DNA of 36,905 nucleotides from Caldilineaceae bacterium (lineage in GTDB: Bacteria; Chloroflexota; Anaerolineae; Caldilineales; Caldilineaceae). How positions within the stretch are numbered: the first letter of the stretch is position 1; the number at the start of each line of letters is the position of its first letter. The translations under genes and the position numbers were made by a program. Below are positions 444 to 17,489 of this stretch, piece by piece. The stretch is from the NCBI GenBank assembly GCA_023384455.1, contig JAHDWH010000036.1, forward strand, positions 1 through 36,905, in the 5' to 3' direction. Under the pieces are notes generated by a model, which was not told the DNA's origin, made no database searches, and saw only the letters and a program-made list of their open reading frames with translations.

Positions 444-3400
444 ATGGATTTCTTATGTAGACTTCGGAATCGTGTACGACGATTCTCTATCGTCACTGGC
501 GTTTTCGTGCTTCTCGGAGTGATACTAGCAGTTTCTCCAACAGTCGTATTCGCCGATCCGGTACAACCCACCGGGAAAATCGATCTGTCCGGCGTGGCAC
601 CCGTCAAGTTCTCGTCCCCTACACTTGTTGATCTGGACGGTGATGGCGATCAAGAGATTCTTGTTGGAACGACAGATGGTAAAGTGATTGCTCTCAACCG
701 TAGCGGGAATACCCTGTCTCAACTTTGGGCATATAGCACGAGCACTGTGCTGGGCGGTGCTACCATTGTCCGTGGTGCGATCTCTGCGGGCGATCTCGAC
801 AAGAATGGTACGGTTGAGGTCGTTGTTCCTGTTGGTGATATATTCAGCACCAATACATACGGCGGTCTAGTCGTATTGGATGCCTACGGCAATCTACTTT
901 GGTATTATCGAACATACGATCATGTTGGTACGGCTGGTCCGCCGGATGGCTACAGCGATGGCATTATTGGTGCTCCTGCATTGGGCGATCTGGACAACGA
1001 CGGCGATCTGGAGATTGTCTTCGGCAGCTTCGATCACCGCATCTACGTCTTCCACCATGACGGTACCATCGCTGACGGGTGGCCCCAGTTCATCAGAGAC
1101 ACCATTTGGTCGTCTCCGGCATTAGCTGATCTGGACGATGACGGCTTCCTGGAAATCATCATCGGCATTGACACCCATCAGGAAGGTACTCCATTTAACA
1201 CACCGAACGGTGGTGGGCTCTATGTCTATCGCAGCAATGGAGAATTGGTCTGGAAGAAATTCATCAATCAAGTGATCTACTCTTCGCCGGCTGTCGGCGA
1301 TCTGGATGGCAACGGGACATTGGAGATCGTGCATGGTACCGGTCCCTACTTTCAGACGGCGGCAGGGCAAGCGGATGGCCACAAAATCTATGCGTGGGAT
1401 GCCGCGGGCAATCCACTCTGGAACGGCAATACATCAGGTTATACATTGGCAAGTCCTGCCCTGGGTGATATTGATGGCGACGGGAAACTTGAGATAGTAT
1501 CCAACGTTCTCGACCGCAAGGCCTACGCCTGGAATCACGATGGCTCCAGCCTGTGGACCAAAACACCTGTTGACATGTTTGGGAAGACGATGGAATTGGC
1601 AAGCGCACCGGTTCTGGCTGATTACACAGGCGACGGAAAAGCAGACGTATTTGTCAACATCTTCTGGGAAGCGGCTATCCTTGACGGCAACTCGGGAAAT
1701 CAGCTCACTGCCACATCGTTTCCGAACAACCCTGCGCCCGCCTATGTAAGCGGTCACACAGCATCCGACAACTCATCTGCGCTGGGTGATCTGGATGGCA
1801 ATGGAACATTGGAACTTGTCCTCGCCAGCGCTGATAATGCCGGCGGTCATGCCCAGATCGTATTCTGGGACTCACTTGTCGGCAACGGGAAGCCTGCACC
1901 CTGGCCTATGGTCGGTCAGAATCCTCGCCACACCAATCTCTATCCCCACAGGCTACCTCTGGCATCCGAGATCATCGCGCACACCATCCCGGCGGTCATG
2001 AGTCCAGGGGAAAGCCGGGACGTAAGCATCACACTGAAGAATACGGGCACAGAGACATGGACATCAGGCATCAACCGGGCTGAAGACGCGTCCACTGTGG
2101 CGTTAGGTGCGGTGGGGGATGCGGATCCGTTTACCTCGGCTACGCGCCAGCAACTACCAAAAGGAACAACCGTCGCGCCTGGTCAGAGCTATACATTTAA
2201 ATTCGCCCTGAAATCACCTTCTCAGAACGGTTACTTTATCACAGATTGGCGTCTGATAACTGACACCAGCGGTAAATGGTTTGGCGCTACCGCCAAAGTC
2301 AATGTGAAGATAGGGGATCAACCGAATTTGCAGCTTCTGACAATCCAGGGACTGAAGGCCGCCGGGCTTGCCACAGCACCGTTGCCTAATCCGGTGGGTA
2401 ATTTCACCAACTGGCCAGCTGCTCTGATATTGAAGCTGACTACCGACAAGCTAGGCGGCTATCATATGTTCGATAGTTTCGGCGGCCTTTGGTATGGCGG
2501 AAACACATTCCCCCATCGGCCCAAAGGTCCGGTTGCAGACCCACGAGAATTCCTGCTTGGCCCAGATAGTATCTCCTACTACGTGCTCTTGGGAGATGGT
2601 ACAGCCTATGGATGCAATACCGAGACCTGTACTCTGAACTTCACCCCGGCCCCGCCCACCAACATTCAGGCCCGCTCCTTTGCCCTGGCTGTAACGACCG
2701 ATCCCCAGGAGGCTAAGAACGCCCTGGGCGTCTACGTTCTGGATGGCTTTGGCAACGTCTACACTGGCGGCGCGGCGCCGGCCATCAGCAAACCCAGCGG
2801 CTTGCCTGTGGCCCAGGACATCTTCGTGCGCATCAAATTAAAGGCGGACGGCAAGGGCTACTATCTGCTGGACAAGTACGGCCGCATCTGGAATGGCGGC
2901 AGCGCGCCGGCTCTGGCGCCCAACTATACACCAAAGACCGGCGAAGACTGGGCCAGGGACTTCGAGTTGACCGCCGACGAGAAGGGTTTTTACATGCTGG
3001 ACAAGGACGGCAAGGTCTACAGCGGCGGCGACGCGCCCGACCTGACCGTCAATATTCCAGCCAGCGGCCCAGGCATCGGCCGGGATTTGGAGTTGGTGGA
3101 CACCCGCAAGAGCAGTGCACCCAGCGCGAGCTTCACGCCCGATGGCATAGGAATCTTCCACGAGAATGGCGCTACTGGTCCAATCCAGACCACAATCTCT
3201 CTGTCCAACCAGGGCGCAACTGCCTTTCAATGGACGGCCTCGGCGGCCTGGCCTACCCCAGTTCGTATGCCTGTGGTTAAAATTACACCGAACTCTGGCA
3301 CGTTGAATCCGGGCGCAGCGCAGCCCCTAGCCGTGGAAATCTCTGGACTGGATGGCCTATCCAACGGAGTCTATACGGTCGATATTGCGGTCTCAGCCAC

Positions 3401-3500
3401 TGGCGTCACTGGCGGGCCACAGATCAACCGCACAACGAAGCTGACGGTTTTAGTGGTAGACCAAGTCCATTCTGTGAATTTGCCGCAGATCACCCGGTAG
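444..3500 (+). CDS. Secreted FG-GAP/VCBS repeat protein with NBR1-like Ig domain and propeller-like repeats
   Basis: A 1018-residue protein with an N-terminal signal peptide: arginine-rich start, hydrophobic stretch about 17-34, likely cleavage after VVFA near 37. Residues about 60-460 hold eight calcium-loop motifs of the form DLDGNGTLE (one degenerate, DYTGDGKAD), the hallmark of FG-GAP/VCBS beta-propellers. Residues about 505-625 resemble the NBR1-type Ig-like domain (ITLKNTGTETW, followed later by TDWRL). Residues about 629-872 carry repeats built on YxLDxxGxVYxGGxAP, probably a second propeller. Residues about 885-1010 look like an Ig/BACON-type beta-sandwich. The protein ends VNLPQITR with no membrane anchor. 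An AGAGAGA purine run about 10 bases upstream supports this ATG. A hairpin follows the stop. The likely role is extracellular adhesion or scaffolding; no catalytic motif is visible. Confidence 0.85.
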   Translation: MDFLCRLRNRVRRFSIVTGVFVLLGVILAVSPTVVFADPVQPTGKIDLSGVAPVKFSSPTLVDLDGDGDQEILVGTTDGKVIALNRSGNTLSQLWAYSTSTVLGGATIVRGAISAGDLDKNGTVEVVVPVGDIFSTNTYGGLVVLDAYGNLLWYYRTYDHVGTAGPPDGYSDGIIGAPALGDLDNDGDLEIVFGSFDHRIYVFHHDGTIADGWPQFIRDTIWSSPALADLDDDGFLEIIIGIDTHQEGTPFNTPNGGGLYVYRSNGELVWKKFINQVIYSSPAVGDLDGNGTLEIVHGTGPYFQTAAGQADGHKIYAWDAAGNPLWNGNTSGYTLASPALGDIDGDGKLEIVSNVLDRKAYAWNHDGSSLWTKTPVDMFGKTMELASAPVLADYTGDGKADVFVNIFWEAAILDGNSGNQLTATSFPNNPAPAYVSGHTASDNSSALGDLDGNGTLELVLASADNAGGHAQIVFWDSLVGNGKPAPWPMVGQNPRHTNLYPHRLPLASEIIAHTIPAVMSPGESRDVSITLKNTGTETWTSGINRAEDASTVALGAVGDADPFTSATRQQLPKGTTVAPGQSYTFKFALKSPSQNGYFITDWRLITDTSGKWFGATAKVNVKIGDQPNLQLLTIQGLKAAGLATAPLPNPVGNFTNWPAALILKLTTDKLGGYHMFDSFGGLWYGGNTFPHRPKGPVADPREFLLGPDSISYYVLLGDGTAYGCNTETCTLNFTPAPPTNIQARSFALAVTTDPQEAKNALGVYVLDGFGNVYTGGAAPAISKPSGLPVAQDIFVRIKLKADGKGYYLLDKYGRIWNGGSAPALAPNYTPKTGEDWARDFELTADEKGFYMLDKDGKVYSGGDAPDLTVNIPASGPGIGRDLELVDTRKSSAPSASFTPDGIGIFHENGATGPIQTTISLSNQGATAFQWTASAAWPTPVRMPVVKITPNSGTLNPGAAQPLAVEISGLDGLSNGVYTVDIAVSATGVTGGPQINRTTKLTVLVVDQVHSVNLPQITR

Positions 3501-3684: not shown

Positions 3685-5031
3685 ATGGCTGTCTCTGTCC
3701 GTTTTCAAAATGTTTCCAAACGTTTCGTTCTGCATACGGGGCGGTCTCGCACCTTGCAAGAACAGATTCAGGATCTGTTTCTGCAGTCGCACAACCGCGT
3801 GTTGCCGCAGAAAAACGATTTTTGGGCTTTACAAAACGTTTCGTTTGATGTGGAACAGGGACACACAGTCGGTCTGGTTGGTTCTAATGGCAGCGGCAAA
3901 AGTACAGCGCTGAAACTCATCGCGCGCATTCTCGAACCCACCTCCGGCTCGGTCCAAGTGAAGGGCCGGATTTCTGCACTATTGGAGTTGGGCGCGGGTT
4001 TTCACCCGGACCTGACCGGACGGGAGAATATCTACCTCAACGGATCGTTGATGGGAATTGGACACAAACGGCTAAATCGGGTGTTCGATGAGATTGTCGA
4101 CTTCTCCGAACTGGAAAAGTTCATCGATATGCCGGTGAAGCACTTTTCATCCGGGATGTACACACGGCTGGCTTTCGCTGTGGCGATTCACGTGGATCCT
4201 GAAGTGCTGCTGGTCGATGAAGTATTGGCGGTAGGGGATGGCGCGTTTCAGCGCAAATGTATGGAAAGCATCGGAAAGCTGCGCCGAGCGGGCGTCACCA
4301 TTCTCCTCGTCTCCCATGACCTGGAAACAGTCGCCCGGCTCTGTCACACCGCCGTCTGGCTGGACAAAGGGGGGATTCACGCTATCGGAGACGGACAGCT
4401 AGTCATCAATGACTACATCGCCCACATTAACGAACAACAGCGCGCGCTCCTGGAGCGCACCCAGAAACAGGGCGAGGAGAAGGAACATGCCGAAGGTCCT
4501 GCCGAGCAGAACAATAGCGCCACGAATAGTGCTGACGAAACCGTTACGGTTGCGCCCCTTAAAGAAGCGCAAATCACCCGCATCGAAACGCTGGACCGGG
4601 ATGGGAACCCAGCCAAAAGCATTCTGACTGGCAATCCTCTTTATATCCGCATTCATTATACGGCCGACCGCCGCATCGACACACCTGTTTTTGGGCTGGC
4701 CCTGCACCGGGACGATGGAGCGCACGTCACCGGCCCCAACACCCAAGAAGGCGGCTACCCGATTGAGGCGATTGAAGGGGATGGTTTCATCGATTACTGC
4801 CTGGACCGGATCCCGCTCACCGCTGGCCGCTTCTATATCTCCGCTTCTCTTGTTGATCAGACCTGCACATTCTTCTACGACTATCACCACCAAACCCACT
4901 CCTTTGTCGTACAGCCACGTTCCGTCTGGGATCAGCTTGGCGTTGTCAAGTTGGATGGGCAATGGCGTCTACGGCCCTTTGCTTCCCAGAGGCGCAAACC
5001 AACACCTTTGCTGGAGACCAGTAAGCCATGA
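3685..5031 (+). CDS. wzt: ABC transporter ATP-binding protein of polysaccharide export (Wzt type)
   Basis: A 448-residue ATPase that powers export of undecaprenyl-linked polysaccharide through a partner permease (Wzm). Visible motifs are Walker A GSNGSGKST (66-74), the shortened signature FSSGM (154-158) typical of this family, Walker B VLLVDE (174-179) and the switch histidine in SHD (211). After a charged, low-complexity linker (about 255-290), residues 295-412 match the Wzt C-terminal beta-sandwich that binds the modified end of the glycan. The ATG at 3685 puts MAVSVRFQNVSKRF at the N-terminus, as in relatives, although no strong ribosome-binding site is visible. It overlaps the next gene by four bases (ATGA). 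No ABC-2 permease gene is adjacent or elsewhere in the window, which is unusual because the two are normally side by side. Confidence 0.9.
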   Translation: MAVSVRFQNVSKRFVLHTGRSRTLQEQIQDLFLQSHNRVLPQKNDFWALQNVSFDVEQGHTVGLVGSNGSGKSTALKLIARILEPTSGSVQVKGRISALLELGAGFHPDLTGRENIYLNGSLMGIGHKRLNRVFDEIVDFSELEKFIDMPVKHFSSGMYTRLAFAVAIHVDPEVLLVDEVLAVGDGAFQRKCMESIGKLRRAGVTILLVSHDLETVARLCHTAVWLDKGGIHAIGDGQLVINDYIAHINEQQRALLERTQKQGEEKEHAEGPAEQNNSATNSADETVTVAPLKEAQITRIETLDRDGNPAKSILTGNPLYIRIHYTADRRIDTPVFGLALHRDDGAHVTGPNTQEGGYPIEAIEGDGFIDYCLDRIPLTAGRFYISASLVDQTCTFFYDYHHQTHSFVVQPRSVWDQLGVVKLDGQWRLRPFASQRRKPTPLLETSKP

Positions 5032-6870: not shown

Positions 6871-8439
6871 TCAAGCGATGGCTCCCATCTTTTGCAAGGA
6901 GCGGTCGATGGCTGCACCAAAATGGCCGCGATTGAAACGCTGACTGTCTGCCAGCGCATTCCTTGCCATTTTCTGACGCAATGCTTCGTCCCGGATCAGG
7001 CGCAAAGTATACTCCCGCAACTCTTCGATTTGGCTCCACAGAAAACCCGTGCGCCCGTGCTCGATAATCTCCGTCTGGCCTCCTTTACGGATTACCACAG
7101 GCACACAGCCCGACGCCATCGCCTCCACAGTCGTCACGCCAAAATGCTCCAATTTGATCGGCTCTCGCTCCTCGTCCTCGCCAAAGCCCGCCGCGTGCCA
7201 ATAGATTGTGCTGCGGCTGTAAAGATCGACCAATTCGGCAAAGGGCTGGTTGGCATGGATTTCAATAGGGTATCCCTGGGCGGCTTCACGTACACGTTCC
7301 AGATAGCGCTGGTGGATCGGATCATCCACCACCCCCCCAGCCAGGTGTAGCGCCCAGCCGGTCAACCCATCATCCACCAGTTTTTTGAATGCCTGAATCA
7401 TCACCAGGTGCTTCTTATTGTGGGCCGCCACAAAAAAACGGCCCACACTCAAAATCATCTGCTCTTTGGCCGCCGGACGAAACGACTCCACCTCAACCAT
7501 TGGGTAAACGACATCGCTGGAACGGCTCCAATAATTCTTAATCCAGCCCTGGGTGAAGATCGAGTTGGCCCAGATGGCATCATACGTGTCCACCTGTGCC
7601 AGAAAGTTATCGGCGGGCACGTGTTGAAGCCGATCACGCCAACCCGGCAATAGCTTCTCGAAAAGTTGGTGAAAGATGAATGCTCTCGGGTGATTGATCT
7701 GGAAATTCACCAAGCGGAGATAGGGCAGGTCTCGCGAAGTAGCGGCAGTGCGTCCTGGAGTGGAAGTTGGAATTTCATCACTCTCAAATCGGATACGATA
7801 CGATCTCCGGAACTGCTTTGGAAAATCGAGTCGAAACGATTTTGCAGCTTGCGGCGACAGAATAATGTCATGCAAGGGACGGTCATCCAGGCCTATTTTC
7901 ACCTTTCGCTCTTGGGTAGTGGGATTCAACAGGGAAAAGGTAGCTTCCAGTGCAGCAAAACTGGGCGCAATCTCCATTTCTGCATCCCCAGTCAACAGTC
8001 GCACGCCTTGACCGCTATCATACTCAGGCTCGAATATTCCAACCGTTGCCAACTCTACAGCAAGCCAATCATTGAGCAACTTTGCTACCGTGCGTCGGAT
8101 ACGCGCAGCGACTCCCAGGTGGTATTGTGTGGGGAAAAAGATGAGCAGCGCACCGTACCTGGCCTGACACGGAATGTAATAGTTATGGAGCGCATTGACG
8201 AACAGATCGTATTCCTGGGTAAGCGAAGCCAACTGGACGACCGACTGTGTGGGAACAGAGCGCAGGTCAACCCGTGACATATCAAGCGTCAGATGGCGCG
8301 TGATGGCAGAAGCCCCTAATGGGGTATGGGTGATTACCTCGACCTGATGATGATGGCTCAGGTGTTCCGCAATCGCCAAAGCGTGACGATTGCCGCCCCC
8401 CAGGGATGTCAGTTGTCGGATGTAAACGCCTAAGCGCAT
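6871..8439 (-). CDS. GT4 glycosyltransferase with inserted beta-rich domain (paralogue of its upstream neighbour)
   Basis: A 522-residue GT-B enzyme. The N-terminus contains the glycine-rich donor/acceptor loop SLGGGNRHALAIAEHL (12-27). The C-terminal half has ILSVGRFF (329-336) and the retaining GT4 motif E431-x7-E439 in EHFGVTTVEAMASG. Between about residues 140 and 250 lies a beta-strand-rich segment not found in ordinary GT4 enzymes. It aligns along its whole length with the adjacent 529-residue protein (HNKKHLVMIQAFK versus HNKKHLVMIEAFK), so the two arose by tandem duplication. The start is ATG at 8439 with AAGG about seven bases upstream. It is the last gene of a three-gene minus-strand unit, 31 bases after the previous gene. 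The sugar specificity is unknown; the pair may add two successive related residues. Confidence 0.85.
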   Translation of the reverse strand: MRLGVYIRQLTSLGGGNRHALAIAEHLSHHHQVEVITHTPLGASAITRHLTLDMSRVDLRSVPTQSVVQLASLTQEYDLFVNALHNYYIPCQARYGALLIFFPTQYHLGVAARIRRTVAKLLNDWLAVELATVGIFEPEYDSGQGVRLLTGDAEMEIAPSFAALEATFSLLNPTTQERKVKIGLDDRPLHDIILSPQAAKSFRLDFPKQFRRSYRIRFESDEIPTSTPGRTAATSRDLPYLRLVNFQINHPRAFIFHQLFEKLLPGWRDRLQHVPADNFLAQVDTYDAIWANSIFTQGWIKNYWSRSSDVVYPMVEVESFRPAAKEQMILSVGRFFVAAHNKKHLVMIQAFKKLVDDGLTGWALHLAGGVVDDPIHQRYLERVREAAQGYPIEIHANQPFAELVDLYSRSTIYWHAAGFGEDEEREPIKLEHFGVTTVEAMASGCVPVVIRKGGQTEIIEHGRTGFLWSQIEELREYTLRLIRDEALRQKMARNALADSQRFNRGHFGAAIDRSLQKMGAIA

Positions 8440-8470
8440 CTCTTGCCTTCACACTTTCCGGTCTACTGGT

Positions 8471-10060
8471 TCAGCGTCCTGTTTTTGGGCCAGACGGAAG
8501 CGCGTCCATAGCTGCATCTATCTGCCTGCCAAAATTGGGCAGGTCGAAGTGGCGGCTTCGGATCTGCGCCGCTGCGGACACGGCCGCATACAATTCTTCA
8601 TCCTCAATCAATTGTCGGGTGTAGCCCTGCAATTCGTCCAAAGTCTGCCAAACGAACCCACTCTGGCCGTGCTCAACGATCTCTGGCTGGCCGCCTTTGC
8701 CGATCACTACCGGCGCGCACCCCGCGGCCATAGCCTCCACTGTCGTCATGCCGAAATGTTCAAACTTGTCCGGCTGGTGCGCTTCGTCCTCCCCATAACC
8801 CGCCGCGTGCCAATAAATGGCGCTCTCTCCGTAGAGCCTCAGCAATTCTTCCCTGGGTCTGTTTGTGTGGATGTGGATGGGATACCTTTGGGCCGCCTCC
8901 TGGACTGTGCGCAGATACGCCTGGTGTATGGGATTGTCGATAGCCTCACCGGCCAGATGCAACTCCCACCCTTCCAGCCCCTGATGGCACATCGCTTTGA
9001 ATGCCTCAATCATCACCAGATGCTTTTTGTTATGGAATGCAACGAAAAAGCGCCCTACGCTGAGAATCCGCTTTTTCTTGGGCAATGGCGGCAAGTCATC
9101 CACCACAACCGGAGGGTAGATGATTTTGCTCTCCCGCTGCCAATAGGCAAGTGTCCAGCGCCGTGTGAATTCGGATATCGACCACACGTCGTCGTAACTT
9201 TGAATGCGTGTAGCCGCGTCGCCTGGCACTGGATTAAGCAGCCGATCCCGCCAATGGGGCAGCCAGTTCTCGAAGAGCTGGCGATAGACCCGGTAGGCGG
9301 GGTGGGAGAGATGGAAGTCGGTCACGGCCAGATGGGGGAAGCTATCTACGGGCAGCGAGTGCAGCGAGAAACGCTCTTGTGCAGAAGCACCATCGATTTT
9401 GAGATGCAACCGATGGGCAGATCCTGCCGCGCGGCCCGCAACCTCTACTTGGCAAAGGGATGATCTGCCTTCTCCTGGCACCACCACACACTGAATGTGT
9501 TGGTCATCCAGCCAAACGTCCACGAGCCGGTCGGTGGCGGAAAGGTTACGCACCCGGAAGGTCACTCTGTAAGTTAGGGGCGCAGATGCCAAATGCATCT
9601 CGGCGTGCGCGGCGAGCAGTTGTATCCTATCTGGGCCCAGGTGTTCTTCGCCGAAGAATCCGTCGTGGAACCTATACGGGATGAGACGCCATTCCAACCA
9701 CTGAGCAGCCCAGCGCCGCAGCCGCCCCATCGGGCCAAACTGCACAGGCATGGGAAAGAGGACCAGCAGCACGCCGCGCCGTGCGCGACAGGGCATCAAC
9801 ACATTGTGCAGCCGATTGATAAAGAGGTCGTATTCGCCTGTCAGTGCGACCAACTTCTCTTCTGGTAGCACGGGGACAACCCGCAGATGGATGCGCGACA
9901 GGTCCAGGCCGAATTGGGGCAGAGTCTGGGACGCGCCGTAGGGAGTGTGGGTAATAATCTCCACATCGTGCTGCTGGCTGAGGTGCTCTGCGATGGAAAG
10001 CGTATGTCTATTCCCTCCGCCCACCGAAATCAATTGTCTGCAATAGAGGCCAATTTTCAT
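8471..10060 (-). CDS. GT4 glycosyltransferase with inserted beta-rich domain (first of a tandem pair)
   Basis: A 529-residue protein, paralogue of the next gene downstream. The glycine-rich loop SVGGGNRHTLSIAEHL is at 12-27, RILSVGRFF at 331-339, and the catalytic pair E434-x7-E442 lies in EHFGMTTVEAMAAG. Residues about 140-250 form an insertion of alternating beta strands (YRVTFRVRNLSATD, then VDVWLDDQHI), like a small Ig or CBM-type sandwich placed inside the N-terminal Rossmann domain. The polypeptide then returns to the GT fold at YDDVWSISEF (289-298). Typical GT4 enzymes are 350-420 residues, so the insertion explains the extra length. It lies 19 bases downstream of the polytopic membrane protein gene and is probably co-transcribed with it. 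Confidence 0.87.
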   Translation of the reverse strand: MKIGLYCRQLISVGGGNRHTLSIAEHLSQQHDVEIITHTPYGASQTLPQFGLDLSRIHLRVVPVLPEEKLVALTGEYDLFINRLHNVLMPCRARRGVLLVLFPMPVQFGPMGRLRRWAAQWLEWRLIPYRFHDGFFGEEHLGPDRIQLLAAHAEMHLASAPLTYRVTFRVRNLSATDRLVDVWLDDQHIQCVVVPGEGRSSLCQVEVAGRAAGSAHRLHLKIDGASAQERFSLHSLPVDSFPHLAVTDFHLSHPAYRVYRQLFENWLPHWRDRLLNPVPGDAATRIQSYDDVWSISEFTRRWTLAYWQRESKIIYPPVVVDDLPPLPKKKRILSVGRFFVAFHNKKHLVMIEAFKAMCHQGLEGWELHLAGEAIDNPIHQAYLRTVQEAAQRYPIHIHTNRPREELLRLYGESAIYWHAAGYGEDEAHQPDKFEHFGMTTVEAMAAGCAPVVIGKGGQPEIVEHGQSGFVWQTLDELQGYTRQLIEDEELYAAVSAAAQIRSRHFDLPNFGRQIDAAMDALPSGPKTGR

Positions 10061-10079
10061 TGGGATCGAGTCTCTGATT

Positions 10080-11966
10080 TCACGGAGAAGGTCGGATTTG
10101 AAAGACCCACGCGCATTCGTCTTGATGCGCCAGTTTCAAGTGGGGATAGGTCGCAAGCACCTCGCCACGCAAAGGGAGGCTGAACGGATTCTCCATACAG
10201 CCGACATAGACGTAGGATACGCCTGTCCGTGCCAATTCTTCCGCCGCGGCCGGGTCCTGGACCAATGATTGCGCCAGTTGAGAGAGGGCAGCCACTTCTT
10301 GACGATAGGCTTTCGCCCCCAGACTGGATAGCATTGAACCGGTGTTGGTCTTTCTGCCTGTAAAATAGGGAATCCAATAGCCGGCGTCGCTGCCGTGAGG
10401 CAGAGTAGGAAGCCAGAAATGGGTATTGATGGCAAAACGCGCGTCTGCCGGGGTATTGTCCCGAATCCACTCCATTGCCCGCACATCAGCAGGTGTCACA
10501 AAGAAGCGATTGGTCTCTACTTCGGTCAGCCGCACGTGGCTGGCGACAAAGCCCAAAACCAACACACCAGCCCAGACCACAGGCAATACTTTTTCCTGCC
10601 TGTGCATACCCAGGCGATCCAGAATATCCTGTGCCACAATCCCGATAACCAACCCGACAGGAATGTAAAAGAGAAGATAGATCGCACCCAAATTGGTCAC
10701 ATTCAGGAGTGGGATGCCCAGACGATAGGTGTTGCCCAGCGCAAAAAGGGCGGCAAGCCAGAGGGCAATCCCCCAAACCAACCGGTTACGCAGCAGAATC
10801 CCCAGCACCAGCGCGCCGATTCCTGTCCAGAGCAAAAGCGGATGAGCCACCAGATAGGGGATCGATTCAGCAGCAAAGTCAAAATAGGCAGAGTGAACCC
10901 CGGTAGGTGGCACTACCTGTCGCCCAAAGCCGCGGGTGGAGACGTAATAGGAGATAGCCGGTGTAAGAGCCGGTATGACAAAAAATAGCGAAGATGCGCC
11001 CACACCAACCGCGGCCAGAAAAGTAGCGCGCAAGCGGCCACTGCCCACAGCCAGAAATAGCTCCCACAGGACTGTGCCAGCAATCAGGAATAGCAGAAAG
11101 AAGGCAACCCGGAAATGGATAAGAAAGATGCTGGCAATGAGCGCGCCGGCAAAGCCAATCTGCCAGAGAACGTGCCAGCGGGGAAGCGGTTGCTTTTGCC
11201 GCCAGGCCGAAAGAAAATCCCACAATACAACCCAGGCAATGGGCAAAATCACCTGTCCGGCAAGTTGGGTGAAGCGCCCCCAGTTGACATAGAAAGCCGG
11301 TTGATGGGAGTATAGACCGATGACTGCTGCCGCCAGCAGAGCACCTGTGCGCCCCACCCGTCGATCCAGCACCAGATAGACACCGATGCCACACAGTCCA
11401 TTCAATACCTGGGCTGTCCACAACAGGGCAATGTGTGCGGGGACCCGAGCCAGCCACATGACTGGCGCTGTAATCGCATAGAGTCCGAGATGGTATTGAT
11501 CGAGGGAGATCGGCTCGTAGGGTTCCAGTGTTGCAGGCAGGCGGCCCTGAATCGCGGTCAGTTTGGTGAGGAGTGTGTGGTGGAGGGAATCCGACCAGGC
11601 AGGGAAGGGGTGATCCCGCAAGACCCAAAGGCGGATGAAAATTGTTGCGCCGATGACGGTCACCGCCAGCCACTCGACCCGATCTAAGCGTACCAGATCG
11701 GGCAACTGTTTGCGCAGCAACCAAACGGACGTCAGCAGCATCACGGCCAGTACCGCCGCCAGCTTATAGGGGCCGAGCGGCAGAAACGAACGCACCCCAT
11801 AGAAAAGAATCGGATAGAAGGCAATGCTCAGACCGACGGCGATAATCCAGCGCTGTAATCCTGTCCAGGATTTCCACAGACCGGAGATCGCCAAAAGAAA
11901 CCAGCCCGGCAGCAAAAGCAGTAGAGCCAGAACGCCCAACACACGTATTGTCGTAACTGTGTCCAT
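10080..11966 (-). CDS. Polytopic membrane protein, probable GT-C-type glycosyltransferase
   Basis: A 628-residue protein with roughly a dozen hydrophobic segments in the first 460 residues and a soluble C-terminal domain (about 465-628, beginning near MEWIRDNTPADARF). The first large loop contains AWSDSLHH with an acidic residue (D126) and histidines, matching the position of the catalytic aspartate in GT-C enzymes, which use polyprenyl-phosphate sugars on the outer face of the membrane. The C-terminal domain pattern (WIRDNTPADA) is common in such proteins. No named family is certain from the sequence alone. It is the first gene of the minus-strand unit, upstream of the two paralogous GT4 genes. 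Its ATG at 11966 lies only about six bases after a promoter-like TATTGT, so the mRNA may be leaderless. Confidence 0.75.
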   Translation of the reverse strand: MDTVTTIRVLGVLALLLLLPGWFLLAISGLWKSWTGLQRWIIAVGLSIAFYPILFYGVRSFLPLGPYKLAAVLAVMLLTSVWLLRKQLPDLVRLDRVEWLAVTVIGATIFIRLWVLRDHPFPAWSDSLHHTLLTKLTAIQGRLPATLEPYEPISLDQYHLGLYAITAPVMWLARVPAHIALLWTAQVLNGLCGIGVYLVLDRRVGRTGALLAAAVIGLYSHQPAFYVNWGRFTQLAGQVILPIAWVVLWDFLSAWRQKQPLPRWHVLWQIGFAGALIASIFLIHFRVAFFLLFLIAGTVLWELFLAVGSGRLRATFLAAVGVGASSLFFVIPALTPAISYYVSTRGFGRQVVPPTGVHSAYFDFAAESIPYLVAHPLLLWTGIGALVLGILLRNRLVWGIALWLAALFALGNTYRLGIPLLNVTNLGAIYLLFYIPVGLVIGIVAQDILDRLGMHRQEKVLPVVWAGVLVLGFVASHVRLTEVETNRFFVTPADVRAMEWIRDNTPADARFAINTHFWLPTLPHGSDAGYWIPYFTGRKTNTGSMLSSLGAKAYRQEVAALSQLAQSLVQDPAAAEELARTGVSYVYVGCMENPFSLPLRGEVLATYPHLKLAHQDECAWVFQIRPSP

Positions 11967-13263: not shown

Positions 13264-14571
13264 ATGCGCATTTTACATCTCGTCCATCAATACCCGCCCG
13301 AATATGTGGGCGGCACAGAATACTATACCCAGAGCGTTGCTCAGGCATTGACCCAGCGCGGCCATTCGGTGGCCGTCTTCACCCGGCGCAATGGGGATGG
13401 CAAAGGCAGCAGCCAGCGTATGGATGGGGATGTGGCCGTACATCTGGCCTGGAATGGAGAACTCACCCCTGGGCAACGTTTTTTGACAACCTTTGGCCAT
13501 GCAGCTATCGCCGAGCCATTCGACGCGCTGCTTGCCCAGTTCAATCCCCACCTTATCCACATCCAACATATGCTGGGAATGCCCACCGCGCTCCTGGAAC
13601 ATATCCTCCAGCGCAAAATCCCTTTTGTGCTTACATTGCACGACTTCTGGTGGGTGTGCGCCAATGCCCAATTGATCACAAACTACAGCGGCGAGATTTG
13701 TGACGGACCCAATCTCTGGCTCAACTGTGCCCGCTGTGTACTGGCCCGCAGCCAAAAGCAGACTTTCTGGCCTGCGATACTCCCCGTGGCGGCTATGCTG
13801 GGCCATCGCAGCGCCCGATTAAATCGATTAATGAAGGCAGCCACCCGGATCATTGCGCCCTCCCAATTTGTCAAAACGTGGTATAGCCAGCACGGGATTT
13901 CCACCGACAAAATTGTGGTTCTGAAACACGGGGTGGACCGACACCCCAAATCGCTGCCAGCCAATCACCCGCCAGAGATACAACCAACAGCCCGCCGCCC
14001 CATCCGTCTTCTCTACGCAGGGGGACTTAGCTGGCAAAAGGGCATACATATACCCATCGAAGCCATCGCGTCGATTGTCGGGGATATTGAACTGTGGATT
14101 GCAGGCGACGAGCGCTTTGATCCTGAATACAGCGAACGGCTGCATCGATTGGCCGCTCAGAACGGGGCTGGGCGGGTACGCTTCTTGGGCAGACTTTCTC
14201 ATACCCAAGTGCAAAGACATCTGGCCGACGCCGACGCCGCGATTGTGCCAGCCCTCTGGTACGAGACCTTCTCTCTCTTCGTCCACGAAGCCTTTGCCGC
14301 TGGCACCCCTGTCATCGCCTCGAATCTGGGTGCGCTGGCCGAAGCCGTCCGTCACGCAAAGGATGGGCTGCTCCTCCCCCCCGGTGATGTACAGGCATGG
14401 GCTTCCCTCTTCCAGCGTATTCTCTCCGAGCCAGGGCTGCTGGCCGATCTGCGCAGCAACATCCAAAGACCGCTGAGCGTCGCCGAGCACATTGACCATC
14501 TGCTGGGAATCTACGCGGAAGCCGTTGATCCCCTATCCTCCTCTCAACCAGAGGTCATTCTCTCCTTATGA
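13264..14571 (+). CDS. GT4 glycosyltransferase with cysteine cluster
   Basis: A 435-residue GT-B enzyme. The N-terminal loop YPPEYVGGTEYYTQSVA (10-26) is the usual GT4 glycine-rich motif, and LLYAGGLSWQKG marks the start of the donor domain. The catalytic segment is ETFSLFVHEAFAAG with E-x7-E spacing. Residues 132-158 contain a cluster C132, C146, C155, C158 (last two as CARC) after LHDFWWVC, which also occurs in the GT4 gene at 21009 and may bind a metal. No Shine-Dalgarno is visible before the ATG at 13264. It begins a run of six glycosyltransferase genes with overlapping or abutting ends, its own stop overlapping the next start by four bases. Confidence 0.88.
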   Translation: MRILHLVHQYPPEYVGGTEYYTQSVAQALTQRGHSVAVFTRRNGDGKGSSQRMDGDVAVHLAWNGELTPGQRFLTTFGHAAIAEPFDALLAQFNPHLIHIQHMLGMPTALLEHILQRKIPFVLTLHDFWWVCANAQLITNYSGEICDGPNLWLNCARCVLARSQKQTFWPAILPVAAMLGHRSARLNRLMKAATRIIAPSQFVKTWYSQHGISTDKIVVLKHGVDRHPKSLPANHPPEIQPTARRPIRLLYAGGLSWQKGIHIPIEAIASIVGDIELWIAGDERFDPEYSERLHRLAAQNGAGRVRFLGRLSHTQVQRHLADADAAIVPALWYETFSLFVHEAFAAGTPVIASNLGALAEAVRHAKDGLLLPPGDVQAWASLFQRILSEPGLLADLRSNIQRPLSVAEHIDHLLGIYAEAVDPLSSSQPEVILSL

Positions 14572-17489
14572 CACATCCTGCCTCCCCTTCGCTGCTTTCC
14601 ATTGTGCAGTCAATGGTAACCCAACAGAACAGCCAGAAGTTGGCTCAGATTCTTGTCTTGGGCAATGAAACGGCTATCCGCGGCCATGCACTTGCCGAAA
14701 ATCTCTATCCTAAGGCGGTTGTCCATCAATGTACATTGCACGAATCAGCAGCCTTTTTTCAGTCTTCCCAAACACGCTTTGACCTGATCGTTCTTCTCGA
14801 AACACCCCTCCCCCAGTCAGCAGACCGTACCCAAACACTCGTTCTCAATACAACGACCGCATCCGATGATATTCTCCTCATCCTGAACCCACAGGCTGTC
14901 AACCTGCCTGCCGATGGCAGCCATTGGATAGAACTACTCAGCCGCTTCGCGGCCCAGGGCTATGGGTGCGACATCCAAAAGGAGGCCCTTTTCGCAGAGA
15001 TTCCCCTGCTGCATCTACGCCGCACGCTACTGACACCCGCCCAGATTGCGGCCCATTTGAGTTTGATTGCACGCCATTTCTGGCAGCAGGTTTTGATTGG
15101 CCAGCACAACGCGCGACAGCAGGACCAGCTGCTCATCTCCATTGCCAGCGATGCCCAGGCGCTCCAAGACCAGGCCGAACAGTTGGCCCGACGCATCGCC
15201 CTTTTGGAGGAGCAGACGCAAATGATGGGGGGCGATTGGGAACGCCTGCGCACCACCCCCGGCTATGCAGTGATGGTGGCTTTGCAAAAAGCCCGTGCCC
15301 GGGTAGCGCCACCCAACAGTCGTCGCGAACGTACGCTGGAAATGACAGTGGGGTGGGCCAGAATCGCCGGCGAGCATGGCATTCCCGGTCTCTTTCGCCA
15401 TCTGCATGGGGAAGTCCGTTGGCGATCTCAGGTATGGATTTCCCGCTTTGATAGCCGCAAAAATTACGCCAGCCGATTTGTAGAGATCAAACATCTGCCC
15501 CAACGCCCACCCCTGACCGTTCATCGGATGCCTGTGGATATTGTCGTCTGCGTTCACAATGCACTGGAAGATGTGCAGCGCTGCCTGGCATCGGTTCTCC
15601 ACCACACATTCGAACCCTACCGTCTCATTCTGATCGATGACGGCAGCGATCTGCCCACTCGAGACTTCCTGGCAGACTTTGCCCGTCGCCATTCACAGGC
15701 TGTTCTGCACCGTTCGGAGACAGCTAGCGGGTATACAAAGGCGGCCAACCGGGGTATGCGCATCAGCGATGGGGAGTACGTCGTTCTGCTTAACAGCGAC
15801 ACAATCGTGACAGAGCAGTGGCTGGAACGGATGATAGCCTGCGCTGAATCTGACCAGCAGATCGGACTGGTCGGCCCTCTTTCCAACACAGCCTCCTGGC
15901 AGTCTGTTCCTGCGATTCTGCATGGCAACGACTGGGCAGAAAACGCGCTACCCGCCAGCCTGGACATAGATGGATGGGCACATCTCCTCGCCCGCCATTC
16001 AGGGCGCATTTATCCAGAGATGCCCTTTCTCAATGGGTTCTGCCTATTGGTGCGCCGCCAACTGCTTACGGTCATCGGCCATTTTGACGAGAATGCCTTT
16101 GGGGCTGGCTATGGCGAGGAGAATGACTTTGCCCTGCGCGCCCGCAAAGCAGGCTGGAAACTGGCCCTGGCCGACGACGCCTACGTCTACCACGCCCAAT
16201 CCCGCAGCTATTCCCACGAGCGCCGCCGACAACTGAGCGCCCAGGCCCACACAGCTTTGCTGGCAAAACACAAGGCATCGGTGATTGAGGCTGGGGTGGA
16301 CTATTGCAGAAACAATTGGGTACTGGAAGGAATCCGGGCCAGAGCCGCGGTCCTGGCCGAGCGAGAAGCACTAAACCAGCAGGGACGACGGCTCTATGGG
16401 GGGAAGCGGGTTCTCTTTGTGCTGCCCATCAACCACCCCGGCGGCGGCGGTAATGTAGTGATCAAAGAAGGGTTGGCAATGAAGCAGATGGGGGTGGATG
16501 TTCATCTGTTCAATCTGGCATCCTGTCGCCCTGGCTTTGAACAGAGCTACCCCGACATAACACTCCCGATCCATTACGGAGAACCGGAAGATTTACCCTC
16601 CCATCTCTCCGATTTCGATGCTGTAATCGCAACCTGGTGCGGATCTGTTCATTGGATTGTCCAGGGGTTGTCCGCGGACAACCAGCCCCGGGTAGGTTAC
16701 TACGTCCAGGACTACGAGCCTTATTTCTTCCCCCCCAATAGCAAACTCTTCCAAATGGCCGTGGACAGCTATACAGCGCTGCCCTCTATGCGCCCTTTTA
16801 CAAAGACAGAGTGGAATCGACAAGAGGTGCTGACAAAGACAGGAGCCAACTGCGCAGTTATTGGTTCATCAATTGACATCGACAGCTTTCGTCCACGGCC
16901 ATTGGGCGAAGAATTCCCGGATTGCCCTCTTCGAGTATGCGCATTGGTACGTCCCAATACCTATCGCCGTGCCCCAGAACTGACAATGCGCCTGCTACGA
17001 CGGCTATCTCATCGCTACGCCAATCGAGTCCAAATTACGATTTTTGGTGTAGACCCCGCCGATCCAAATTTTGCTCCCTTGCCTAAGGATTTTGATTGGC
17101 AATTGGCCGGAGTCATCGACGCCCCGAAAGTGGAAGCGCTCATGGCCCAGACAGATATCTTCACTGACTTCTCGGAATATCAGGCTATGGGGCTGACGGC
17201 GTTAGAGGCGATGGCTTGTGGTGCAGCCGTCATTGTACCCCACAAGGGCGGCGCAATCAGCTTTGCCCGGCACGGAGAAAACGCGTTAATCGTCGATACC
17301 AGTTCGGAAGACGCCTGCTGGGAGAGTCTGGTAAGTCTCGTTGAAAATCGGGAGATGCGCCATTCCCTGCGCCGTGGAGCAATCCACAGTGTCTGCAATT
17401 TTCCCCTGGAACGGGCCGCGCTCAATATTCTAAAAACCCTGTTTCAGCCCTCCCAGCCCGCCGCTCTGTCCGAAGGGGGCCTCCTGTGA
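14568..17489 (+). CDS. Three-module glycosyltransferase: N-terminal Rossmann-like/coiled-coil region, GT2 and GT4 domains
   Basis: A 973-residue fusion. Residues about 25-155 form a Rossmann-like region that resembles a degenerate methyltransferase but lacks its glycine motif. Residues about 180-220 are predicted coiled coil, followed by a basic linker (TTPGYAVMVALQKARAR). Residues 323-545 are a GT2 domain: VDIVVCVHNA, the nucleotide-binding DDGSD, the metal motif in LNSDT (408-412), and GYGEEND (514-520). Residues 613-960 are a GT4 domain with YYVQDYEPYF (711-720), a segment typical of WsaF-like rhamnosyltransferases, and EYQAMGLTALEAMACG, where the glutamates E870 and E880 are spaced by nine rather than seven residues. 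It probably adds two successive sugars. It overlaps both neighbours by four bases. Confidence 0.88.
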   Translation: MTHPASPSLLSIVQSMVTQQNSQKLAQILVLGNETAIRGHALAENLYPKAVVHQCTLHESAAFFQSSQTRFDLIVLLETPLPQSADRTQTLVLNTTTASDDILLILNPQAVNLPADGSHWIELLSRFAAQGYGCDIQKEALFAEIPLLHLRRTLLTPAQIAAHLSLIARHFWQQVLIGQHNARQQDQLLISIASDAQALQDQAEQLARRIALLEEQTQMMGGDWERLRTTPGYAVMVALQKARARVAPPNSRRERTLEMTVGWARIAGEHGIPGLFRHLHGEVRWRSQVWISRFDSRKNYASRFVEIKHLPQRPPLTVHRMPVDIVVCVHNALEDVQRCLASVLHHTFEPYRLILIDDGSDLPTRDFLADFARRHSQAVLHRSETASGYTKAANRGMRISDGEYVVLLNSDTIVTEQWLERMIACAESDQQIGLVGPLSNTASWQSVPAILHGNDWAENALPASLDIDGWAHLLARHSGRIYPEMPFLNGFCLLVRRQLLTVIGHFDENAFGAGYGEENDFALRARKAGWKLALADDAYVYHAQSRSYSHERRRQLSAQAHTALLAKHKASVIEAGVDYCRNNWVLEGIRARAAVLAEREALNQQGRRLYGGKRVLFVLPINHPGGGGNVVIKEGLAMKQMGVDVHLFNLASCRPGFEQSYPDITLPIHYGEPEDLPSHLSDFDAVIATWCGSVHWIVQGLSADNQPRVGYYVQDYEPYFFPPNSKLFQMAVDSYTALPSMRPFTKTEWNRQEVLTKTGANCAVIGSSIDIDSFRPRPLGEEFPDCPLRVCALVRPNTYRRAPELTMRLLRRLSHRYANRVQITIFGVDPADPNFAPLPKDFDWQLAGVIDAPKVEALMAQTDIFTDFSEYQAMGLTALEAMACGAAVIVPHKGGAISFARHGENALIVDTSSEDACWESLVSLVENREMRHSLRRGAIHSVCNFPLERAALNILKTLFQPSQPAALSEGGLL

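Follow-up and report, generated by a model that had tools for sequence, protein, structure and literature searches.

The tandem GT4 genes and their locus

The window, that is, the whole stretch of 36,905 nucleotides analysed from a Caldilineaceae bacterium (Chloroflexota), carries two adjacent minus-strand genes for proteins of 522 and 529 residues, the lengths given in the initial annotation. These genes, their subdivisions and the neighbouring genes that bear on them are as follows:

3685..5031, (+): Wzt-type ABC ATPase with Wzt_C (Pfam ABC_tran E 6.6e-22, Wzt_C E 8.1e-20); no match to the module profile
6871..8439, (-): GT4 glycosyltransferase paralogue A (P0001), 522 aa; Pfam PF00534 E 1.2e-19; E431-x7-E439; orthologue L036_7355 with 80% identity over core columns
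7696..8055, (-): jelly-roll insert of paralogue A, at residues of about 129-248, placed by alignment to the modelled insert of B; scored 29 bits by a profile that left out the window clade, shuffled maximum 1.9
8471..10060, (-): GT4 glycosyltransferase paralogue B (P0002), 529 aa; Pfam PF00534 E 3.3e-20; AlphaFold2 model; E434-x7-E442
9140..9307, (-): N-terminal Rossmann domain of B, portion following the insert (residues 252-307, with helices 254-275, strand 291-294 and helix 297-307), from the model; kept in the insert-free homologue P0005
9308..9676, (-): inserted jelly-roll module of B (residues 129-251), from the whole-protein model, the module-alone model, the fold search and the profile match to CBM35 2w3j
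9683..10060, (-): N-terminal Rossmann domain of B, portion preceding the insert (residues 1-126, last helix 110-126), from the secondary structure of the model
10080..11966, (-): membrane protein, 628 aa, immediately preceding paralogue B in the sense of transcription; order shared with genome G002

The two paralogues are 45% identical from end to end, and both exceed the cut-off of 26.4 bits for PF00534 (Glycos_transf_1 C-domain), with 70.9 and 72.8 bits, respectively. In the acceptor domain, Pfam recognised residues 13-58 alone, as a weak N-terminal GT4 match, and the GT4 matches from NCBIfam were generic and far under their cut-offs. The E-x7-E motif of the donor domain is intact in paralogue A (E431/E439) and in paralogue B (E434/E442), the latter two residues being invariant across 32 homologues. 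The AlphaFold2 model, built for paralogue B with 32 sequences, contains the two Rossmann-like domains of a GT-B fold (pLDDT 93, pTM 0.91), and a fold search with the full model returned BshA, MshA and PimA (E about 1e-12 to 1e-14), with TarM, GtfA and SdgB also among the top 50 matches. By sequence and model, both genes are GT-B glycosyltransferases of family GT4 with a predicted transferase activity, and the long plus-strand ORFs that overlap them are mechanical.

Orthologues of both GT4 genes were found in genome G002 of the same genus, where the order membrane protein, paralogue B, paralogue A is kept (locus L033; window 6871-11966), so the duplication predates the split between these two genomes. 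The gene of the 628-aa membrane protein and paralogue B probably form one transcription unit. The Wzt-type ATPase with Wzt_C marks the locus as one of the ABC-transporter-dependent surface-polysaccharide kind. The Wzt gene adjoins an FG-GAP repeat protein of 1018 aa with an Ig-like domain (window 444-3500), and a 973-aa fusion of GT2 and GT4 domains lies within the same locus (window 14568-17489). A search with the module profile found the inserted module in no other protein of the window, the Wzt protein included.

The inserted jelly-roll domain

The homologue alignment revealed two length classes, with Chloroflexota proteins of about 510-550 aa against proteins of about 350-400 aa, the short class consisting of nearly all Patescibacteria homologues together with three close Chloroflexota ones (L058, L063 and L070), which measure 397-415 aa, that of L070 being 397 aa. 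The difference resides in one block, located after a conserved F-F-P motif and its helix and before the helix that precedes the strand with Y-D-x-[IVL]-W-x-x-S. Since insert-free close homologues exist, the extra length is a true insertion of about 120 residues (about 129-251), in line with the 110-120 additional residues originally estimated relative to usual GT4 enzymes. The greater divergence of this part, also noted at the outset, is evident from the identity between paralogues A and B, which is 53% over residues 1-126, 19% over 127-252 and 55% over 301-529; for the two orthologue pairs, the values over 1-126, 127-252 and 253-529 are 68, 30 and 62%, and 79, 42 and 80%.

A quick maximum-likelihood tree, unrooted and with the insert columns removed, placed the insert-free Chloroflexota proteins within the insert-bearing clade. 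Presence or absence was scored by length, so that the shorter inserts of Actinomycetota and the odd segment of L073 were counted as present, and the starred branches of the core tree cannot be explained with fewer than three changes. These may be read, for example, as one gain and two losses, and on the sequence evidence the insert was probably lost at least twice; as the root was not inferred, the direction of gain and loss is a matter of interpretation. The segment in L073 (3668-3979), a Shapirobacteria GT4 homologue, occupies the site of the insert with a different stretch, about 100 residues long, that does not resemble the module.

In the model of paralogue B, the stretch 129-251 comprises about ten strands (129-131, 135-141, 144-149, 152-157, 164-172, 178-184, 187-194, 200-207, 216-222, 230-232 and 244-251), which make up a sandwich of their own, flanked by helix 110-126 on one side and by helices 254-275 on the other. 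The strands 2-6, 32-37, 57-61, 79-84 and 95-100 of the N-terminal domain precede the insert, whilst strand 291-294 and helix 297-307 follow it; the arrangement in paralogue A was deduced from the alignment. The insert was also predicted to fold alone (pLDDT 88, pTM 0.81). The strand-rich character assigned to residues of about 140-250 in the initial annotation is thus borne out, and so is its proposal of a beta-sandwich that interrupts the first Rossmann domain, for which it had suggested structure prediction and a fold search with the insert alone; in the model the region is not folded as an integral part of the GT-B domain, and Pfam gave no match over residues 140-250 of either protein.

The matches of the insert alone in the PDB were mostly carbohydrate-binding structures, including the hyaluronan-binding module 4d0q, CBM35 (4qb1, 4qb2, 2w3j and 2w1w), CBM36, CBM29 and the carbohydrate-binding parts of BcsB, at E about 1e-4 to 1e-3 and with TM-scores mostly of 0.40-0.56, which are modest, so the likeness is one of fold class only, and this class includes proteins that do not bind sugars. 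Other jelly-roll proteins, including toxin binding components, were also among the matches, and a viral fold library gave generic jelly-roll and tail-protein matches only, with no relative found in viral contigs. At the sequence level, the insert profile matched the CBM35 structure 2w3j at E 7.5e-5, and the profile of the wider module family barely reached it (E 0.49). None of the CBM family profiles matched any of 25 inserts and no convincing Pfam family was found for them, CBM60 appearing at E 0.002 in only two of 26 wider module members, while the CBM_35 Pfam model had no match in the window's genome, where the control likewise matched nowhere, so that this result carries no weight. The ASRAH sugar-binding superfamily (PMC2739507) was considered for the module, and no sequence match to it was seen. 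As modelled, the insert is a separate CBM35-like jelly-roll domain in the acceptor-side Rossmann domain; a role in binding carbohydrate or in sensing acceptor length, as guessed in the initial annotation, would be a reasonable proposal.

Recurrence of the module in operon partners

When the insert profile was compared with 301 Chloroflexota genomes, 70 of them had matches, some in proteins other than this GT4, and in some families a single genome had as many as 12. Membrane proteins carry the module C-terminally if they are of the PMT_2/TPR type and close to the N-terminus in other cases (L148, L149, L151 and L163 have membrane proteins with it); it was also located at the C-terminus of Wzt proteins and of methyltransferases, and inside GT2 enzymes. 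In the Wzt protein of L156, for instance, the ABC domain occupies 51-182, Wzt_C 273-389 and the module 454-573. A profile of the GT4 inserts only already detects the methyltransferase L155_+_2701 (1.2e-6), the Wzt protein L156_+_973 (1.3e-6) and the GT2 enzyme L157_-_1647 (1.4e-9), so these matches did not arise by drift of an iterated search.

Around the GT4 genes of loci L036-L066, the module was also observed in the neighbouring GT2 (21 loci), in Wzt (16 loci) and at the C-terminus of the methyltransferase (five loci), although many of these genomes are closely related and the independent cases are fewer than the counts. Wzt, GT2 and GT4 genes are often consecutive in such loci, and neighbours of these kinds that all bear the module, sometimes together with a methyltransferase, occur at L156 973-2691 and 3920-5680, at L047 2797-8825, and in L049, L056 and L066. 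Genome-wide, the three module genes of G361 all belong to this operon, the matches of G363 all fall within about 4 kb of a single contig, and G362 carries three copies in the operon and a fourth outside it. No module was found in the fetched neighbours of the insert-free GT4 genes (L058, L063 and L070); however, the GT2 enzymes of the insert-bearing loci L037, L039 and L044 lack it, so the correlation between insert and neighbouring modules is incomplete. In the window's own genome (G000), the sole match elsewhere to the wider profile is a weak one in a 756-aa frame (contig C443, 66443-66775; L167; E 0.01).

In the GT2 enzymes the module is apparently circularly permuted, judging from its sequence motifs: the last strands (L-x-x-x-T-F-x-P ... 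D-x-R-x-L-G-V) precede the first (G-x-x-G-x-E ... F-R-W-T), as compared with the copies in GT4, Wzt and methyltransferase. This order was seen in the GT2 of L157 (2898-4355, minus strand), L049 (4520-6001), L066 (4607-6001) and others. When the pieces were rejoined as they stand in GT4, 12 of the 14 cases showed a higher profile score, by about 4-14 bits, with two partial matches becoming one nearly complete match, and in ten of those 12 the gain was above all 30 shuffled controls, in support of a circular permutation. The score did not rise for L038 and L157, where the trimming pattern had left the GT2 tail on.

The signature of the module, G-[FW]-[YH]-x2-E ... R-W-T ... A-x-L-x-L ... D-x-R-x-L-G-V-A-V, is strong in the relatives, and among 97 non-redundant modules the positions G5, [FW]6, [YH]7, E10, R18 (85 of 95), W19, T20, A24, R109 and G112 are conserved. 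The window copies have lost most of these residues, and G-[IF]-F-x2-E with the core pattern is all that they retain: paralogue B has GFFGEE, with IQLLA where FRWT is expected, and paralogue A has GIFEPE, with RLLT in place of R-W-T, and D-x-R-x-L-G is lost from both. With the window clade left out, a profile of the remaining GT4 inserts scored B at 61 bits and A at 29 bits against shuffled maxima of about 2, whereas a profile of canonical members only gave 32 and 10 bits, and the wider-family profile (A5) missed both copies in a search of the window's genome. The membership of the window copies therefore rests on the homologous position of the insert and on intermediate sequences. The tandem modules of the window are a fast-diverging branch in which the ligand may differ or be lost, and a function suggested by sequence for the wider module would be transferred to them only with care.

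Possible roles and comparison with known systems

By sequence and predicted structure, the module is a separate domain that has been gained and lost among these GT4 homologues and recurs in partner proteins; of greater interest than the window GT4s themselves is this wider module, together with the way it is spread over one operon. Its recurrence across the operon and its confinement there favour one of two roles: through it the proteins may recognise a glycan in common, or the enzymes may dock onto one another. The best overall explanation, to which we would give an even chance, is that the module serves as an accessory glycan-binding domain in intact GT4s and is shared with operon partners. 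A CBM35-like jelly roll inserted between two helices of the acceptor-side Rossmann domain would grip the growing lipid-linked chain close to the acceptor site, and since GT2, GT4, methyltransferase and Wzt of related operons carry the same module, each would read the same feature of the chain and might keep the chain or pass it on. The fuller proposal, that this unnamed jelly-roll module is a common recognition tag across the operon (as GT4 insert, in permuted form in GT2, and at the ends of methyltransferase and Wzt), with the window GT4s as a fast-evolving branch, is put forward tentatively, as a possibility somewhat less likely than not.

The main rival to glycan binding is a docking domain that forms homo- or hetero-oligomers, as DUF1975 does in TarM and GtfA/GtfB, and thereby assembles the polysaccharide machinery. 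The module does recur in proteins expected to cooperate, and the window paralogues stand in tandem, as GtfA and GtfB do. Inserts of the DUF1975 type bring GT4 enzymes together as trimers, dimers or heterodimers (PMC8561734), but the fold neighbours of the module are mainly sugar-binding, the module also occurs on PMT_2/TPR membrane proteins in other contexts, and insert-free homologues are present in similar loci. We regard docking as rather unlikely, although the present data are compatible with either role. For the window lineage in particular, the loss of signature residues, the low identity of the insert (19% between paralogues and 30-42% in orthologue pairs, against 62-80% for the core of the latter) and its probable complete loss in relatives, at least twice, would agree with a degenerating, ligand-less remnant acting as a structural spacer. 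Yet all four copies (two in the window and two in G002) have kept an intact frame, a confident fold is predicted and the core pattern is still detectable without the window clade; moreover, ligand-binding modules can diversify fast, and the remnant reading is considered improbable. That the extra residues merely elaborate the Rossmann domain might be suggested by their position within a helical region of the N-terminal domain and by the lack of Pfam recognition, but the separate sandwich that is predicted to fold alone, the homologues with a full Rossmann domain and no insert, and the terminal position of the module in other proteins make this extremely improbable, and it is refuted as far as prediction goes.

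One module common to the transferases, the methyltransferase and the exporter of an operon would allow hand-over and control of chain length in Chloroflexota to be tested directly. The insert-free homologues can serve as natural deletion controls, and the module is a candidate for a new domain-family entry. To our knowledge, shared recognition of a growing polysaccharide by synthesis enzymes and exporters is known mainly from Wzt domains that read a terminal cap, and we know of little work on the surface glycans of Chloroflexota; a full-text search for Chloroflexi glycosyltransferases with Wzt and Wzm found no paper in the literature collection covered.

The initial annotation did not recognise the arrangement as one described for GT4 enzymes; however, TarM, GtfA/B and SdgA/SdgB have their acceptor-side Rossmann domain interrupted by an all-beta domain, DUF1975, and in SdgB the inserted domain recognises and binds the acceptor and promotes dimers (PMC8561734). 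Like the window GT4s, these are GT-B enzymes of about 500 aa with an all-beta insert of about ten strands, but the fold of the CBM-like jelly roll in the window is apparently different from theirs. The insert in TarM also sits earlier in the N-terminal domain. DUF1975 was rejected as the identity of the window insert, as there was no Pfam match and none of these enzymes appeared in the list of 50 fold matches to the isolated insert. The window insert shares its fold class with CBM35, CBM6 and CBM36, as seen in the 2w3j profile match and many fold matches, but it differs from them in having no CBM Pfam match, in its TM-scores and in belonging to a biosynthetic enzyme, not a secreted hydrolase. 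An enzyme with an extra predicted CBM is the terminator of Klebsiella O7, which its authors regard as the only such case among terminators (PMC11231755). The jelly-roll domains of Wzt bind the capped end of the chain (PMC9445017), and Wzt_C (PF14524) resembles the module in fold and in the kind of polysaccharide and locus, but the two are distinct, as relatives such as L156 carry both, with the module after Wzt_C. In cellulose synthase, BcsB, which was among the fold matches, likewise provides jelly-roll modules that accompany a processive glycosyltransferase, but as a separate partner protein, whereas in the GT4s of the window the module is inserted within the enzyme itself.
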